Source: Candidatus Peregrinibacteria bacterium (GTDB lineage: Bacteria > Patescibacteriota > Gracilibacteria > UM-FILTER-43-11). From it: a stretch of DNA of 64,000 nt. The position numbers and the translations under genes were made by a program. The notes under the pieces were generated by a model. It was given only the letters and a program-made list of their open reading frames with translations. It was not told the origin of the DNA and searched no databases. The DNA lies in assembly GCA_016932505.1 (NCBI GenBank), contig JAFGCT010000007.1:48625-112624 (forward strand), written 5' to 3'. Below are positions 6,054-43,693 of this stretch, one piece after another (the first letter of the stretch is position 1; every line of letters starts with the position of its first letter).

Positions 6054-7190
6054 ATGGCCAATATTAGTAGTCTTCGTTCATCGGGAGTTGAAAATTCTTC
6101 AGAAAAATCAGCAAAAACTGATGAAGCTTTATTAGCTTCAAATAAATACCTGACCTCTCTTGAGAAAGCGAAAAGAAAAGCTACGAGAGAAGCAAAAAGA
6201 AGATACAGAGAACTAAAAGAAAAAACAGACAGAACAATCAGAAGAACTACAAAGAGGGCAAAAGAACTTTACAAAAAAGCGGAAAAAATTGTCAAAGATC
6301 CAAAAAACAAAGAACTAATCAAAGTAGTTGTAGACTTGTATGACGACTACATGGAAAAGAGAGAAAAAGAAAGAGAAAGAGATAGAGATGAAATAGCTTC
6401 GAAAACAAACAAAAATTTGGAAAATTATACTTTTGAAGGAGTTCGAGATGCTGAAATAGGTGAAGTTATGACCTCTTGTCAGATAATCTGCGTTAACACT
6501 CATGCGATTGTTCTTGATTTAGAAAAAACCAATAAAAAAGGTGAAACATATTTAGCAACCAACGGTCTTGGAGATCACCTGAAAGAACTAGGAATAGTTC
6601 CGAATATATTAAGCGGTTCAACATCATTATTTAAAAACGGTGTTGGTGATTTTGAATCTTTTAAAGAGGACATCAAAATATTGGATTCTGAAGGAGATCT
6701 TGATAATGCGGCTGAAGTGTTAGCTTGCAGTGCAATAGGTAAATATCAAATTGTCCCTTTTTATCATTTTGATAGAGTGAAGGGGTGGAAAACCGGAGAC
6801 ACTGAATTTAAATTAAAAATGATGTACTTATATTTAAGGAGTGAAAGCCATCAAAATGCATTGGCTAAAAAAATCATTGAATATAAAAACAAAAAATATA
6901 ACGGTAATGCTCTTGTTATGGCAGCCTCATATTATGGCGGACCTGGCGGAGCGATTAAAATGAAAAAGTATTTAAAAGCCAAAAAAAACGGTGAAATTAC
7001 CGACACTACATCTCTCGAAAAAGAACAATCACACGGGTATAAAAGCATTATGGATTATTCAGAACTTGTAGTTAAATATCAAAAAGAATATCAGAGAAAA
7101 CATCCAGAACTATCTTTTACCGAAACTTTTCAAATGGCAATCGCAAAAAAGGAAAGTGGTTACTTGAGGAATAAGAAGGTGAAAATTTAA
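6054..7190 (+). CDS. Lysozyme-like protein, paralogue 2
   Basis: 378 residues. A strongly basic helical or coiled region (about 35-115, rich in Lys/Arg/Glu) precedes a lysozyme-like part with 'GKYQI' (229-233), 'AASYYGGP' (290-297) and C-terminal 'KKESGYL' (365-371). These three blocks are in the same order as in the preceding paralogue, although the remaining sequence has diverged. No membrane helix or signal peptide, unlike paralogue 1. Last gene of the unit; a repeat-filled gap and convergent tyrS follow. A muralytic role is inferred from the fold signature. Confidence 0.6.
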   Translation: MANISSLRSSGVENSSEKSAKTDEALLASNKYLTSLEKAKRKATREAKRRYRELKEKTDRTIRRTTKRAKELYKKAEKIVKDPKNKELIKVVVDLYDDYMEKREKERERDRDEIASKTNKNLENYTFEGVRDAEIGEVMTSCQIICVNTHAIVLDLEKTNKKGETYLATNGLGDHLKELGIVPNILSGSTSLFKNGVGDFESFKEDIKILDSEGDLDNAAEVLACSAIGKYQIVPFYHFDRVKGWKTGDTEFKLKMMYLYLRSESHQNALAKKIIEYKNKKYNGNALVMAASYYGGPGGAIKMKKYLKAKKNGEITDTTSLEKEQSHGYKSIMDYSELVVKYQKEYQRKHPELSFTETFQMAIAKKESGYLRNKKVKI

Positions 7191-7195
7191 TTTGA

Positions 7196-7266
7196 GATTT
7201 GAGATTTGAGATTTAAGGATTAATTTTGATAAAAAAATCACAAATCAAAATTCACAAATCACAAAT
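7196..7266. repeat. Intergenic short-word repeat, gatttgtgatttg family
   Basis: Three copies of 'gagattt' are followed by 'aaatcacaaatcaaaattcaca' type words that are complementary to 'gatttgtgattt'. The gap separates convergent genes. Similar words occur at 16580-16672, 36121-36209 and inside the gene at 42950. Confidence 0.65.
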
Positions 7267-9407: not shown

Positions 9408-9442
9408 AAACTATAAATAAAAAATATAAAATGAAACTAAAT

Positions 9443-9508
9443 GATAATTGATAATTGATAATTGTTAAATGATAATTGATAATTGATAATTGATAATTGA
9501 TAATTGAT
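9443..9508. repeat. Tandem heptamer repeat GATAATT
   Basis: Two runs of the 7-bp unit 'gataatt' (about three copies, a 'gttaaat' interruption, then about five copies) fill the gap between the glycosyltransferase and nadK. Confidence 0.8.
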
Positions 9509-9510
9509 AT

Positions 9511-15526: not shown

Positions 15527-16579
15527 ATGGAACATATCCCAAATCTTTTCTCTATTTTTGGTTGGTCAACAATAGCTTTTCTAGTTACTTTGACGCTTAC
15601 CCCCCTGTATCTAAAATTAGTAAAAAAATTCAAATTAGGAAAACAAATTAGGGAAACCACTATGAGTGGAGAAAAAGCGTCATATTTTAGCGAAATGCAT
15701 GCCAAAAAAACAGGTACCCCTACAATGGGAGGAGTAATAATGTGGGGAGGAGTTATAATTGTGGTATTAATTTCTCGTTTATTAGCACTCTTTGGGCTTC
15801 TTCCTCAATCATTATTACAAAGAGGTCAGGTTTATCTTCCTTTATTTACACTAATTGCAGTTGGAATTCTTGGTGCAGTTGATGACTGGTTTAATATAAA
15901 GCAAATTGGTGGAGTAAAAGGAATTAAAGCAAGACCAAAATTTCTTCTTCTTACATTATTTGCAATTCTAGGGGCGTGGTGGTTTTATTACAAATTGGGA
16001 TTTTCCAGTATACATATACCAAGCATTGGAGATTTTGAAATAGGCTTATGGTATATACCATTATTCATGCTTGTAATACTTTCTACGGCAAATGCGGTTA
16101 ATATTACCGATGGACTGGATGGACTAGCCGGAGGACTTTTAATTATTGCTTTTATGGTTTTTGGTGTCATAGCCTATGCAAAAGGATTAATTATTCTGGC
16201 TGTATTTTGTGGGGTAATAATTGGAACATTACTTGCTTTTCTATGGAATAATATACCTCCTGCATTGTTTTATATGGGGGATACAGGATCACTATCTTAT
16301 GGAGCAACACTAGGTGTAATAGCTATGATGACTAATTCAGTAGTTGTTTTACTATTTGTTGGTGGAGTTTTTATAATTGAAACATTATCAGTAATTATTC
16401 AACTAACTTCAAAGAAATTTTTTAAAAAAAAGGTCTTTTTAATTGCTCCTCTTCATCATCATTATGAAAAAAAGGGTATGAATGAAGCAAAAATCACAAT
16501 GCGATTCTGGATTATAGGAGGATTATTTGGCTCTATAGGACTTATAATAGGCCTTCTTGGAATGGGAAATGGAGTTTAA
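15527..16579 (+). CDS. mraY: Phospho-N-acetylmuramoyl-pentapeptide-transferase MraY
   Basis: 350 residues, about ten membrane helices. Transfers phospho-MurNAc-pentapeptide from UDP to undecaprenyl phosphate, giving lipid I. Catalytic motifs seen: 'GAVDDWFNIKQ', 'NITDGLDGLAGG', 'MGDTGSLSYGA' and 'PLHHHYEKKG'. It shows that the cell makes peptidoglycan, which fits the lysozyme-like proteins and the sorting-like anchor elsewhere in the window. It stands apart from other mur genes. Confidence 0.96.
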   Translation: MEHIPNLFSIFGWSTIAFLVTLTLTPLYLKLVKKFKLGKQIRETTMSGEKASYFSEMHAKKTGTPTMGGVIMWGGVIIVVLISRLLALFGLLPQSLLQRGQVYLPLFTLIAVGILGAVDDWFNIKQIGGVKGIKARPKFLLLTLFAILGAWWFYYKLGFSSIHIPSIGDFEIGLWYIPLFMLVILSTANAVNITDGLDGLAGGLLIIAFMVFGVIAYAKGLIILAVFCGVIIGTLLAFLWNNIPPALFYMGDTGSLSYGATLGVIAMMTNSVVVLLFVGGVFIIETLSVIIQLTSKKFFKKKVFLIAPLHHHYEKKGMNEAKITMRFWIIGGLFGSIGLIIGLLGMGNGV

Positions 16580-16672
16580 TTTGAAATTTGTAAATTTCGA
16601 TTTGTGATTCATTTTAAAATTACAAAACGGAAATCACAATTCTCAAATCACAATTCTCAAATATACCGCTTA
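16580..16672. repeat. Intergenic gatttgtgatt / aatcacaaatc repeat
   Basis: 'atttgtaaatttcgatttgtgatt' type words on the left and repeated 'aatcacaattctca' words on the right form an imperfect inverted arrangement. Same word family as at 7196 and 36121. Confidence 0.6.
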
Positions 16673-24927: not shown

Positions 24928-25003
24928 ATTTATTTGCATTATATCAAAAAAATTCATGTTTACAAAATGCGGGGGATGCTTTAGTATATCCAGGCAAAAA
25001 CGC

Positions 25004-25066
25004 GGAGCGGTAGTTCAGTTGGTTAGAACGCCTGCCTGTCATCCCGATGAAGTCGGGACGGGTTCA
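25004..25066 (+). pseudogene. 5' half of tRNA-Asp joined to a TCCCGA palindrome
   Basis: 25004-25041 equals the first 38 nt of the intact tRNA-Asp at 25339. It then switches to the palindrome TCCCGA-TGAAG-TCGGGA (25042-25058) and 'cgggttca'. No 3' acceptor strand follows, so this is a truncated, non-functional tRNA copy. Confidence 0.85.
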
Positions 25067-25084
25067 GGTTTATATAGAGAGAAA

Positions 25085-25348
25085 ATGAAATATTTTGTAT
25101 ATATAATTGAAAGTCTAAAAGACCAGAGTTATTATATAGGTTACACTCAGGGTCTAGATAAAAGACTTGCCTATCACAATGAAGGAAGAGGAAGATACAC
25201 GTCTAAAAAGTCTCCATGGAAACTTGCTTACTCCGAAGAATATAATTCAAAAAAGGAAGCAATAATCCGAGAGAGACAAATAAAAAACTGGAAAAATAGA
25301 AGATTAATATTAAAATTAATCAGTGACAATAAAAAAATGGAGCGGTAG
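25085..25348 (+). CDS. GIY-YIG nuclease-like small protein nested in tRNA locus
   Basis: 87 residues, starting at ATG 25085; the track extends upstream through tRNA-like sequence, which is not coding. 'YFVYIIESL' and 'YYIGYT' give the GIY-YIG motif, followed by the usual Arg ('LDKRLAYHN'), 'YTSKKSPWKLAYSEEY' and the Glu-containing 'KKEAIIRERQIKNW' helix. It is the YhbQ/UvrC-N-type single-domain form. Its last three codons and stop (ATG GAG CGG TAG) lie within the 5' end of tRNA-Asp. Possibly a homing-like or selfish gene. Confidence 0.85.
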   Translation: MKYFVYIIESLKDQSYYIGYTQGLDKRLAYHNEGRGRYTSKKSPWKLAYSEEYNSKKEAIIRERQIKNWKNRRLILKLISDNKKMER

Positions 25349-25415
25349 TTCAGTTGGTTAGAACGCCTGCCTGTCACGCAGGAGGTCGCGGGTTCAAGTC
25401 CCGTCCGTTCCGCCA
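25339..25415 (+). tRNA. tRNA-Asp (GTC)
   Basis: 77 nt including encoded CCA. Acceptor GGAGCGG / CCGTTCC, anticodon arm CCTGC-CTGTCAC-GCAGG with anticodon GTC, T-arm GCGGG-TTCAAGT-CCCGT, discriminator G. Overlaps the end of the GIY-YIG ORF by 10 nt. Followed by its own terminator. Confidence 0.97.
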
Positions 25416-25460: not shown

Positions 25461-25552
25461 CCTGCCTGTCATCCCGATGAAGTCGGGACGGGTTCAAGTC
25501 CCGTCCGTTCCGCCATTAAAATCCAAGAAACATCTCAGTGAGGTGTTTTTTT
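25461..25552 (+). repeat. Second palindrome plus 3' tRNA-Asp half and terminator copy
   Basis: 25461-25496 repeats 25031-25066 exactly (36 nt). 25490-25552 repeats 25390-25452 exactly (63 nt: T-arm, 3' acceptor, CCA and terminator). Together with the 5' fragment at 25004, this brackets the GIY-YIG gene and intact tRNA between direct repeats. Confidence 0.9.
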
Positions 25553-33747: not shown

Positions 33748-36117
33748 CTAAATATTTTTTTGTCTCAAATAAGAAGGAAGATACCTTGGCTCTTTTAATC
33801 CTTTAACCTTTTTGATGATTTCCATATCATTAAGATTAACCTTTCCATAATATATGTTTTTTAGATTTCCTCCATTCTTAATATAATCCAATATCATTTT
33901 ATACCCCTTGAAATAAACAAAGTCCTTTGTAAAAGCACCTGGCTTACTTGTATCTGAAAGCCCTCGCTTCGCTTTTAATGCGACTTGCCATGCGCGCTCA
34001 GCACCAAAATTATATTTCATAATTTCCTCGTAAACATCGGCAAAACCACCCTTCATCGCAGTATGAATTCCAATAACAGATGACGCAGGCCAATATTTTT
34101 TAATAGTCTCACTTGATTCGGTCTGTTCTTGATTATAAACTGCAAGCCCCTCTTCTGTTATTAAATAATCAGCAAGACCTCTTTGAAATATTTTGTAGGG
34201 TTGCAATGCTCCATTCATTGCAGTAAATGCATGAGTTTCAATTTCATGAGCAATGGTTCCTTTAAGTCTATCCTTTGTAAATCTCGCATTCGATCTTATT
34301 AGAATCGTATTCTTTTTTCCTGCAATTGCATCAGATACCATCTCATCTTTAATCTTTACACTCCAGCCCTTTAGTCCATAATCTGATATAGCCTGTTCAA
34401 AAGCCTTCTTTACATCTTTTATAGGCAAAATTTTACCTGGATCGGGAAAACTTTCAGGCATTTGTTTTATTTCCTCTAAAGCCTCATTGTAAAGTGTCTC
34501 ATCAGGAGCACCATAAAGAAGTATTGATTTTGCAGTAAATTCATCTGTTGCACGAACTTCCATAAGCCCAATTTTTCTATAAATTTCATCAGCTTTTTTT
34601 TGCCATAAATTTCCAATTGGAGTATCTGGGAATTCAATTCTCTTTAGCCTATTGTATAAATTATTCGGATCAAAAGATAATTCTTTGTACTCAAACTGAG
34701 GATTATATTTTGGATCAACTAAAAACTTTGTATGCTCTTCTTTTAAGTTTATAGGCTTAAGATGGGAAAGTAATTTAATTTTACTATCTATTTCAAAAAG
34801 CTCCTGATCAATTCTTTCTAATTCACTTGGGGTAAAAGTTTTTGCTATATAAGGAATATTACTAGCTGGTTTTTCGGAAGCTATCGAAGTCATATGCTTA
34901 TTTGGATCAATTAAAAAATTTCTCAAATCACGTTGCCCAATAAGCATTTTATATTTCTGTTCACTAAAATCTTTAGTATCCACAACTGTCGTTACTTTTA
35001 CATTAAGAAGATTAAATTTACATTTACCTGTTGAATCAAGTGAAATTTTCTCAGCAATTTGACTATCTAAAATTGATTTTTCAATATATGGATCCATCTG
35101 AGCAACAATTTTGGCATTGTCCTTTTTACCAATCACCTCAATTCTTTCAAGACTTCCAATCACTACTTTTTCCGGCTCCCTAGAAATCTTTACTTCAACT
35201 TTCTGACCAAAAATATCCTGAGCAATTCTCACACCTTTTTCAGGTGTATTTACTTTTATACCTTGAATTCGCTCAAGACGCTTTCGAAGAGGTGCCATAT
35301 TGGCGATTTGTACAGCAAGACCTGCGCGTGCGTTAATCTCGAGAAGTACAGGTCCCATATTTTTGTCCAATGTTAAATCAATCGCAGCAAAACCAAGATT
35401 GGTTATTTGTTGTACACGTGAAGCAATAAGAAGCATTTCTTCCCAATGAGGAATTTTTATACCCTCTATATCTCCAAAACCAGGAATACCATTAATTTCC
35501 TTATTATATTGAGTTACATGTGTCATATGCCCTTTTGAAATATCCAAGCCAATTCCTATTCCTCCCAAATGGATATTAGCTTTCCCTTGGGATGTTTCAG
35601 TTGGCATTCTAAGCATAGCCATTACAGGAATAAGATTGTGCACCACAATTCGAATATCGGGAAGCCCCTTGAAAGCCATTTTTTTAAATAAATCAGGAGC
35701 TTCAAGCCTTTGTTCAAAAAGAGCTACATCTGACATATCAGCAATCGAATAACGACCATCAAGAATGTCATTAATATGAGATTCCAATTCATCTTGTGTA
35801 AAAATTTCATCACTTTCTTTTATCCAATTACTACCTTTTCTATTTTTTATTATCAGAATTCCCTCACCTCCATAACCAGCATTTGGTTTTACTACAAATG
35901 AATTTGGGAGGCTATCAAAATCAAAATTTTTAAGTTCTTTTTTACTACTAATAGAGTTATACATACGAGCCACAGGAATCCCACGAGCTGAAAGAAAGTT
36001 TTTAGTCTTAATTTTACTATCAGCAAGCATTACAGCTTTTTTGGGGTTATAAGCCTTAATATATAATAGATTTCGCGCGTTGATTCCGAGCAAGCCCGGA
36101 TTATGGAAGAACCACAT
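33748..36117 (-). CDS. ATP-grasp ligase fused to DUF1704 zinc peptidase
   Basis: 789 residues. The N-terminal ~330 residues match the RimK-related alpha-L-glutamate ligase-like ATP-grasp family: 'NPKKAVMLADSKIKTKNFL', 'FVVKPNAGYGGEGI', 'FKGLPDIRIVVHNLIPVMAMLRMPT' and 'PVLLEINARAGLAVQIAN'. The C-terminal ~330 residues match DUF1704 (tyrosine-carboxypeptidase-like), with 'HEIETH' at 624-629 and 'EEGLA' at about 656-660, the QEGLA-type signature. One chain therefore combines peptide-bond formation and hydrolysis. It is followed by the 7TM gene in the same transcription direction, upstream on the minus strand. Confidence 0.88.
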   Translation of the reverse strand: MWFFHNPGLLGINARNLLYIKAYNPKKAVMLADSKIKTKNFLSARGIPVARMYNSISSKKELKNFDFDSLPNSFVVKPNAGYGGEGILIIKNRKGSNWIKESDEIFTQDELESHINDILDGRYSIADMSDVALFEQRLEAPDLFKKMAFKGLPDIRIVVHNLIPVMAMLRMPTETSQGKANIHLGGIGIGLDISKGHMTHVTQYNKEINGIPGFGDIEGIKIPHWEEMLLIASRVQQITNLGFAAIDLTLDKNMGPVLLEINARAGLAVQIANMAPLRKRLERIQGIKVNTPEKGVRIAQDIFGQKVEVKISREPEKVVIGSLERIEVIGKKDNAKIVAQMDPYIEKSILDSQIAEKISLDSTGKCKFNLLNVKVTTVVDTKDFSEQKYKMLIGQRDLRNFLIDPNKHMTSIASEKPASNIPYIAKTFTPSELERIDQELFEIDSKIKLLSHLKPINLKEEHTKFLVDPKYNPQFEYKELSFDPNNLYNRLKRIEFPDTPIGNLWQKKADEIYRKIGLMEVRATDEFTAKSILLYGAPDETLYNEALEEIKQMPESFPDPGKILPIKDVKKAFEQAISDYGLKGWSVKIKDEMVSDAIAGKKNTILIRSNARFTKDRLKGTIAHEIETHAFTAMNGALQPYKIFQRGLADYLITEEGLAVYNQEQTESSETIKKYWPASSVIGIHTAMKGGFADVYEEIMKYNFGAERAWQVALKAKRGLSDTSKPGAFTKDFVYFKGYKMILDYIKNGGNLKNIYYGKVNLNDMEIIKKVKGLKEPRYLPSYLRQKNI

Positions 36118-36120
36118 AGA

Positions 36121-36209
36121 TTTTAGATTTTAGATTTTAGATTTGTGATTTATGATTGCTTCGAACTAAAAACTAAATCAAAATTCAAAAATCACAAATC
36201 ACAAATATT
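36121..36209. repeat. Intergenic gatttgtgattt inverted short-word repeat
   Basis: Three 'gatttta' units and 'gatttgtgattt' on the left, with 'aaatcacaaatcacaaat' on the right, form an inverted set of the same word family seen at 7196 and 16580. Confidence 0.7.
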
Positions 36210-42949: not shown

Positions 42950-43693
42950 ATGTATAAATCAGAATTCCAAATCACTGACAATATTAGTAATAATTCATTT
43001 TCTTTTTCAAAAAGGAAAACCCCAACTATAACTGTCCCGAAAATTATTGACGGAGAAATTGACGACGTAAAAATCGGAGATAAAATTGTATTTGAAGACT
43101 TTGACGAACACGGTGATCTAAAATCATGCGTCGGTCTTAAAAATTTTATTAGAACAACTCACCCAATCACAAAAAAACCGATAATAATTGTAGATAATCA
43201 TAATCATGTATTTTATTTTTGGTATGAAGCGCGAAAGAATAAACAAGTTAAAGATGGAGGCCTACTTGTCCACATCGACCAGCATAAAGACGTAAGAAAA
43301 CCAGATTCATATTTATTAAAACCTGAATCGGAAGACCTGAAAAAAGTATTCGAGTTCACAAACACTATTCTAAACGTCGGCAATTACATACCATCTGCAA
43401 TGGACGAGGGGTTGATTGGAGATTTGATTTCTATAACAAGTGAAACAGAAATCGCAAATCACAAATCACAAACCTTGCCTACCGGCAGGCAGGTCAAAAA
43501 TCATAAATCGTTAATCGTAAATATTGATTTAGACTTCTGGGCTCCTGAAATGGATTATATTAATAATAAATTAAAAACTGAGTTCACTAAAAAATGGATG
43601 GAAGCAGCGGATATTATTACCATTGCAACCAGTCCATTTTTTATTGATCAAAATCTCGCAATAAAAGTTCTAAAAGAACTTCTATTGTATTAA
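42950..43693 (+). CDS. UPF0489 (arginase-like) family protein
   Basis: 247 residues. 'IIIVDNHNHVFYFWYEA', 'LLVHIDQHKDVRKP', 'NVGNYIPSAMDEGLI' and 'IVNIDLDFWAPEM' are UPF0489 hallmarks; the family has a ureohydrolase-like fold, where the Asp/His sets bind metal. The exact reaction is unknown here. Residues about 166-190 are repeat-derived ('ANHKSQTLPTGRQVKNHKS') and sit just before a core strand. The ATG lies 9 nt after a TATTAT box, suggesting an almost leaderless mRNA. Confidence 0.85.
   Translation: MYKSEFQITDNISNNSFSFSKRKTPTITVPKIIDGEIDDVKIGDKIVFEDFDEHGDLKSCVGLKNFIRTTHPITKKPIIIVDNHNHVFYFWYEARKNKQVKDGGLLVHIDQHKDVRKPDSYLLKPESEDLKKVFEFTNTILNVGNYIPSAMDEGLIGDLISITSETEIANHKSQTLPTGRQVKNHKSLIVNIDLDFWAPEMDYINNKLKTEFTKKWMEAADIITIATSPFFIDQNLAIKVLKELLLY
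43450..43520. repeat. Repeat element inserted in UPF0489 coding sequence
   Basis: 'aatcgcaaatcacaaatcaca' words, the palindromic block TTGCC-TACC-GGCAGGCAGG (about 43474-43493), then 'aatcataaatcgttaatcg' words. In frame it reads ...NHKSQTLPTGRQVKNHKS.... The outer words are the same as in the intergenic repeats at 7196, 16580 and 36121. Confidence 0.85.

Follow-up and report, generated by a model that had tools for sequence, protein, structure and literature searches.

We analyzed a 64,000-nucleotide stretch of DNA (hereafter, the window) from a Candidatus Peregrinibacteria genome of 1.35 Mb (assembly GCA_016932505.1, contig JAFGCT010000007.1, positions 48,625 to 112,624), in which a repeat probably entered the coding sequence of a UPF0489 gene. 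The host gene is an open reading frame (ORF) on the plus strand (42950..43693) encoding a protein of 247 amino acids of the Pfam family UPF0489, and the in-frame block corresponds to residues 169-187 (ANHKSQTLPTGRQVKNHKS), in a variable loop directly ahead of the NIDLDFW strand. The original prediction for this DNA had placed an in-frame block in this gene, and its position and frame agree with the ORF. On the plus strand, the block contains a left heptamer arm (AAATCGC AAATCAC AAATCAC AAA, 43449..43472), a palindromic unit of 21 nucleotides (nt; CCTTGCCTACCGGCAGGCAGG, 43473..43493) that reads (T)LPTGRQ(V), and a right heptamer arm (TCAA AAATCAT AAATCGT TAATCGT, 43494..43518) that runs into native KSLIVN codons. 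A period-7 array, (AAATCRN)n, thus encloses the 21-nt palindrome. What had been described as one repeat is indeed of the dispersed kind and lies within a coding gene, but it is made of two different, stacked repeats, the heptamers and the palindrome. The heptamer stretch partly overlaps the conserved native KSLIVN codons, and import of the whole stretch is therefore not required.

The outer words of the block (aatcacaaatcaca) were said to recur in non-coding gaps at 7196, 16580, and 36121, and heptamer units were found at all three. These gaps lie between ORFs, each starting only a few bases from where an ORF ends; all three contain a heptamer array with inverted arms and without the palindrome (7190..7266, 16576..16662, and 36117..36206, no strand assigned), and the palindrome occurs only once in the window, in the UPF0489 gene. 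AATCACAAATCACA is matched exactly at 36190 and 43457, and the gaps at 7196 and 16580 contain close variants of it. Throughout the genome, three tandem AAATCWC units gave 91 overlapping matches with at most one mismatch, and the reversed control gave 0. Additionally, an intergenic array of a distinct heptamer, TAATTGA, produced the strongest period-7 signal of the window (9438-9509).

The palindrome itself is multi-copy. Its 19-nt core, TTGCCTACCGGCAGGCAGG, was used for the genome-wide count that had been proposed, and it was present in eight exact copies and one G variant in the genome; the reversed pattern gave 0, which rules out a chance origin. Seven of the nine copies lie inside heptamer arrays, the exceptions being those in QueG and a transposase gene; palindrome and heptamers are therefore distinct families, although frequently found stacked. 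The 24-mer AACCTTGCCTACCGGCAGGCAGGT had no match in viral contigs, giving no sign of carriage by phages, and a scan of the window against Rfam returned two tRNAs only, so that the palindrome is not a known RNA family. The window also contains partial tRNA-like copies (CCTGCCTGTCA..GGGTTCAAGT; 24996-25069 and 25461-25552) flanking one intact tRNA (25339-25412).

The heptamer arrays allowed the length of the inserted unit to be read from their phase. Removal of 43473-43493 from the UPF0489 gene leaves AAATCGC AAATCAC AAATCAC AAATCAA AAATCAT AAATCGT TAATCGT, with 40 of 47 matches at lag 7. Across the heptamer-flanked copies tested in the genome, removal of 21 nt gave a mean phase match of 0.88 and, as expected, removal of one heptamer more (28 nt) gave 0.86, while the other tested lengths gave at most 0.47. 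A length of 21 nt was also obtained from two other copies, L077 and L078, the latter in another genome with a different heptamer, AATTTCC. Because excision of 21 nt restores the phase of the array, the unit is 21 nt long, inserts without target duplication, and contributes seven codons. It is free of stop codons in five of six reading frames and, as the G variant, in all six; its length and open frames are enough to account for its frequent presence in frame.

Homologues of UPF0489 were obtained from 28 of 58 genomes searched, including the one studied here. Named genomes, for the most part Peregrinibacteria and Gracilibacteria, contributed 39 loci, and the identity of 48-69% to named homologues suggests that the organism belongs to this group of Patescibacteria. 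LPTGRQV was present at this position in none of the other homologues examined. This is the absence that had been predicted, and it rules out LPTGRQV as a conserved part of the family. The proposal that the insert is a surface loop was examined on an AlphaFold model of the protein (mean predicted local distance difference test score, pLDDT, 94). In this model, the block lies between a helix (residues 165-172) and a strand (188-193) with nearly all of its residues outside secondary structure, and the only segment with pLDDT below 50 (residues 180-182) is within it. The block is thus predicted to form a disordered surface loop. The fold is similar to those of arginase-like proteins, with the peptide arginase OspR as the top match.

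The same loop holds other palindromes in related bacteria. Four further genera from the same family have different palindromes in it, namely CCTGAAGGAGCGGATCATGATCCGCTCCTTCAGG in G006, CCCCGTAGGGGTTCAAAATTTTGAACCCCTACGGGG in G013, TTTCGTAGAGACGCAAGATTTTGCGTCTCTACGAAA in G008, and a 60-nt nested hairpin in G007, and a genome of another family (G030) has a palindrome starting CCTCACCCTAACCCTCTCC. Each of these five is multi-copy in its own genome. Inverted repeats were scanned with long loops allowed at first and then more strictly, with codon-shuffled genes as the null. A score of 12 or more was reached by six of 54 distinct homologues and by 0.4% of the shuffled genes, and four of the six strong inverted repeats fall in this loop, which makes up 8% of the gene length. 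Several sister genera without a palindrome have a loop of 13 residues. With at least five genera having different palindromes in one loop, the case amounts to a natural replicate experiment on the sites at which proteins tolerate insertions.

In addition, the LPTGRQV palindrome was found in frame in about ten other genes of the phylum, and together with the other palindromes of the UPF0489 loop this sets aside the view of the block as an isolated oddity. Of 287 genomes sampled throughout Patescibacteria, 20 contained the 19-mer with any base at position 7, and about 11 of the 27 copies examined outside the genome studied here are inside long ORFs. By NCBIfam names, the ORFs bearing the palindrome encode RecG (twice), HtpX, citryl-CoA lyase, SerRS, PrmC, MiaA, and AroC. 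The SerRS gained exactly seven residues, LPAGRQG, compared with most relatives, and LPAGRQG or LPAGKAG occupies the same point in two further genomes, one of them from a different family. The QueG of the genome studied here carries the palindrome in frame, and its relatives in the family and class are without the insert. Other palindrome families are also in frame, in genes that we named from their sequences: TsaD, a glycosyltransferase, and a HisA-HisF junction in G007, PheT in G008, and LigA, MetRS, and IleRS in G030.

Several of these loci have further features. At the HisA-HisF junction (L153), apparent HisA and HisF form a single open frame with a repeat-derived peptide between them. The QueG that carries the palindrome (L160, contig 22 of G000) has a second variable loop with a (GSDGGSDRG)n tandem repeat, which is absent or variable in relatives. 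In G118 (L084), the palindrome is in a prepilin-like leader, KKG-LPAGRQG-FTLIE, where the insert restores the G ahead of FTLIE at which prepilin peptidase would cut. The RecG of G359 (L231/L233) contains a repeat-like peptide, AQRSEESLSQSINGERSFATLRMT, in the loop that holds LPTGRQV in G287, and this RecG loop may be another reused loop. At two loci of G307 (L065 and L081), the LPTGRQV palindrome interrupts a 5' tRNA-Leu fragment just upstream of an intact tRNA-Leu; what resembles a broken tRNA gene is thus followed by an intact copy.

As candidate movers, we considered the HUH transposases of the RAYT type, the transposases associated with repetitive extragenic palindromes (REPs). Genes of this type (PF01797) were found in eight of 17 genomes searched, and the genome has such a gene by matches to PF01797 and NF047646 (NCBIfam score 69, below the cut-off of 80). 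The RAYTs that could be read through the region contain a strong in-frame palindrome some 30-50 residues past the HUH motif. Peptides like EGA..RLR are encoded at a similar position in L159, L142, L151, L155, L158, and L138, as well as in L170, L171, L172, L179, and L008. The palindrome inside the RAYT belongs to the same family as that of the UPF0489 loop in G006 and G007, and in G008 and G013 an ORF for a related HUH-type transposase carries the family of the loop palindrome. For 13 of 14 RAYT ORFs, no palindrome was found within 250 nt outside the ORF, so these genes are not flanked by two inverted REPs. The link between RAYTs and palindromes is a correlation rather than proof.

Taken together, these results make it likely that a 21-nt repeat spreading in Patescibacteria inserted into the heptamer array of the variable UPF0489 loop without target duplication. 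A palindromic repeat entering this array would neither shift nor end the gene, because its unit is seven codons long and free of stops in most frames. Selection would then purge only those insertions that disturb the fold, and copies would remain in flexible loops. The unit might travel as a single-stranded hairpin, moved by a RAYT/IS200-type transposase of the HUH (Y1) class, a chemistry that leaves no larger target duplication. The excision phase test and the seven-residue gain of SerRS, neither of which reveals a larger duplication, fit this chemistry, also as known for IS200/IS605-like elements; nevertheless, the mover is the weakest step of the explanation and we put it forward tentatively.

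Several observations weigh against this explanation. The comparison of genes with and without the insert spans different species and includes no allele pair from the same species. Two copies from the phylum in weaker arrays (L069 and L070) do not yield 21 nt. The palindrome lacks the terminal GTAG or CGTC by which the known REP classes are tagged. Within the genome, the conserved position of the RAYTs holds a palindrome that differs in sequence from that of UPF0489, which rules out the latter as the conserved-position palindrome; the UPF0489 type occurs at a second position of one RAYT that is apparently truncated, where it may be a passenger.

Alternatively, recombination or gene conversion between arrays, rather than transposition of 21 nt, might have brought heptamers and palindrome as one block into the gene from an intergenic copy. 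The copy in the gene agrees with intergenic copies at up to 92% over a span of 61 nt that takes in the flanks; moreover, the arrays house most copies of the genome, and the native UPF0489 codons resemble the heptamer. However, the copies in SerRS, the prepilin, MiaA, HtpX, AroC, and QueG have no heptamer flanks, which indicates that the palindrome spreads on its own, and the right flank in UPF0489 departs from the genomic consensus around the palindrome. We therefore regard block copying as rather unlikely. A function of the hairpin or of the loop peptide in UPF0489, for example as a control element of the mRNA or as a selected extension, would agree with the folding of the hairpin, which in its context is better than that of shuffled sequences (z about -3), and with the retention of some hairpin at this site by several relatives. 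This is improbable, since both sequence and peptide vary among genera, the 13-residue loops of several sister genera are free of hairpins, and the model shows the loop as disordered. Slippage readily occurs in period-7 arrays, which house many copies, but an origin as a by-product of replication, by snap-back or template switching at slippage sites with no mobile unit, is very improbable, because a local origin would give differing sequences and the same sequence is present in distant genomes and in array-free genes.

Returning to insertion of a mobile 21-nt unit, a broader and more speculative proposal is that Patescibacteria contain frame-neutral mobile palindromes of 21 nt, which would add whole codons because they insert with no target duplication, moved by RAYTs that carry their substrate hairpin in their own frame rather than in their flanks, with the loops of UPF0489, SerRS, and RecG as recurrent landing sites of different palindromes; we consider it possible but doubtful as a whole. 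The length of the unit accounts for the tolerance of insertion in these genomes. Additionally, the peptides LPTGRQV, LPAGRQG, EGA..RLR, and PHPNPLL are repeat-derived and can mislead alignments and homology searches, which is a caution for annotation.

Several known systems resemble these repeats. Cyanobacteria reportedly contain heptanucleotide repeats of the short tandemly repeated repetitive (STRR) type, which are likewise period-7 tandem arrays scattered between genes. The heptamers and the phylum are different here, and the arrays have inverted arms that host a palindrome.

Known RAYTs are flanked by REPs (PMC2817692). The presence of RAYT-type genes and insertion free of duplication resemble this system, whereas the palindromes here lie within the RAYT reading frame. 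A 2013 list of genes containing REPs includes those for DNA ligase and tRNA synthetases, and in recB two Xanthomonas genomes carry differing REPs at approximately one position (PMC3733652). These "REP-decorated" genes share with our case short palindromes within ORFs and the use of about one site by different palindromes. The 21-nt unit differs by its untagged end and its low copy number (about nine); by the definition of the tag (PMC3733652), GTAG is only internal to the reverse strand of the unit, although the loop palindromes of G013 and G008 do begin with GTAG.

A further likeness is to Rickettsia palindromic elements (RPEs), also described in Wolbachia, which occur in frame within conserved genes; a guanylate kinase that contains an RPE retains its activity (PMC2229807). 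As with RPEs, the palindrome is multi-copy, both intergenic and in frame in conserved genes, absent from the homologues of other species, and tolerated by the protein. In contrast to the 105-146 bp of RPEs (PMC2229807), the palindrome here spans 21 nt; it has no sequence relation to them, belongs to another phylum, and is often embedded in heptamer arrays. The peptides LPTGRQ and LPAGRQ were not found in the literature searched, which includes few subscription papers, and the same holds for the frame-neutral 21-nt unit, its spread in Patescibacteria, the use of one loop by several genera, and the RAYT-internal palindromes. Rickettsia and a few genomes rich in REPs have been the main examples of repeats that enter proteins, and here such repeats occur in very small genomes of an uncultured phylum. 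The phenomenon is thus already known, and the UPF0489 block works in the manner of RPEs and of REPs within genes.
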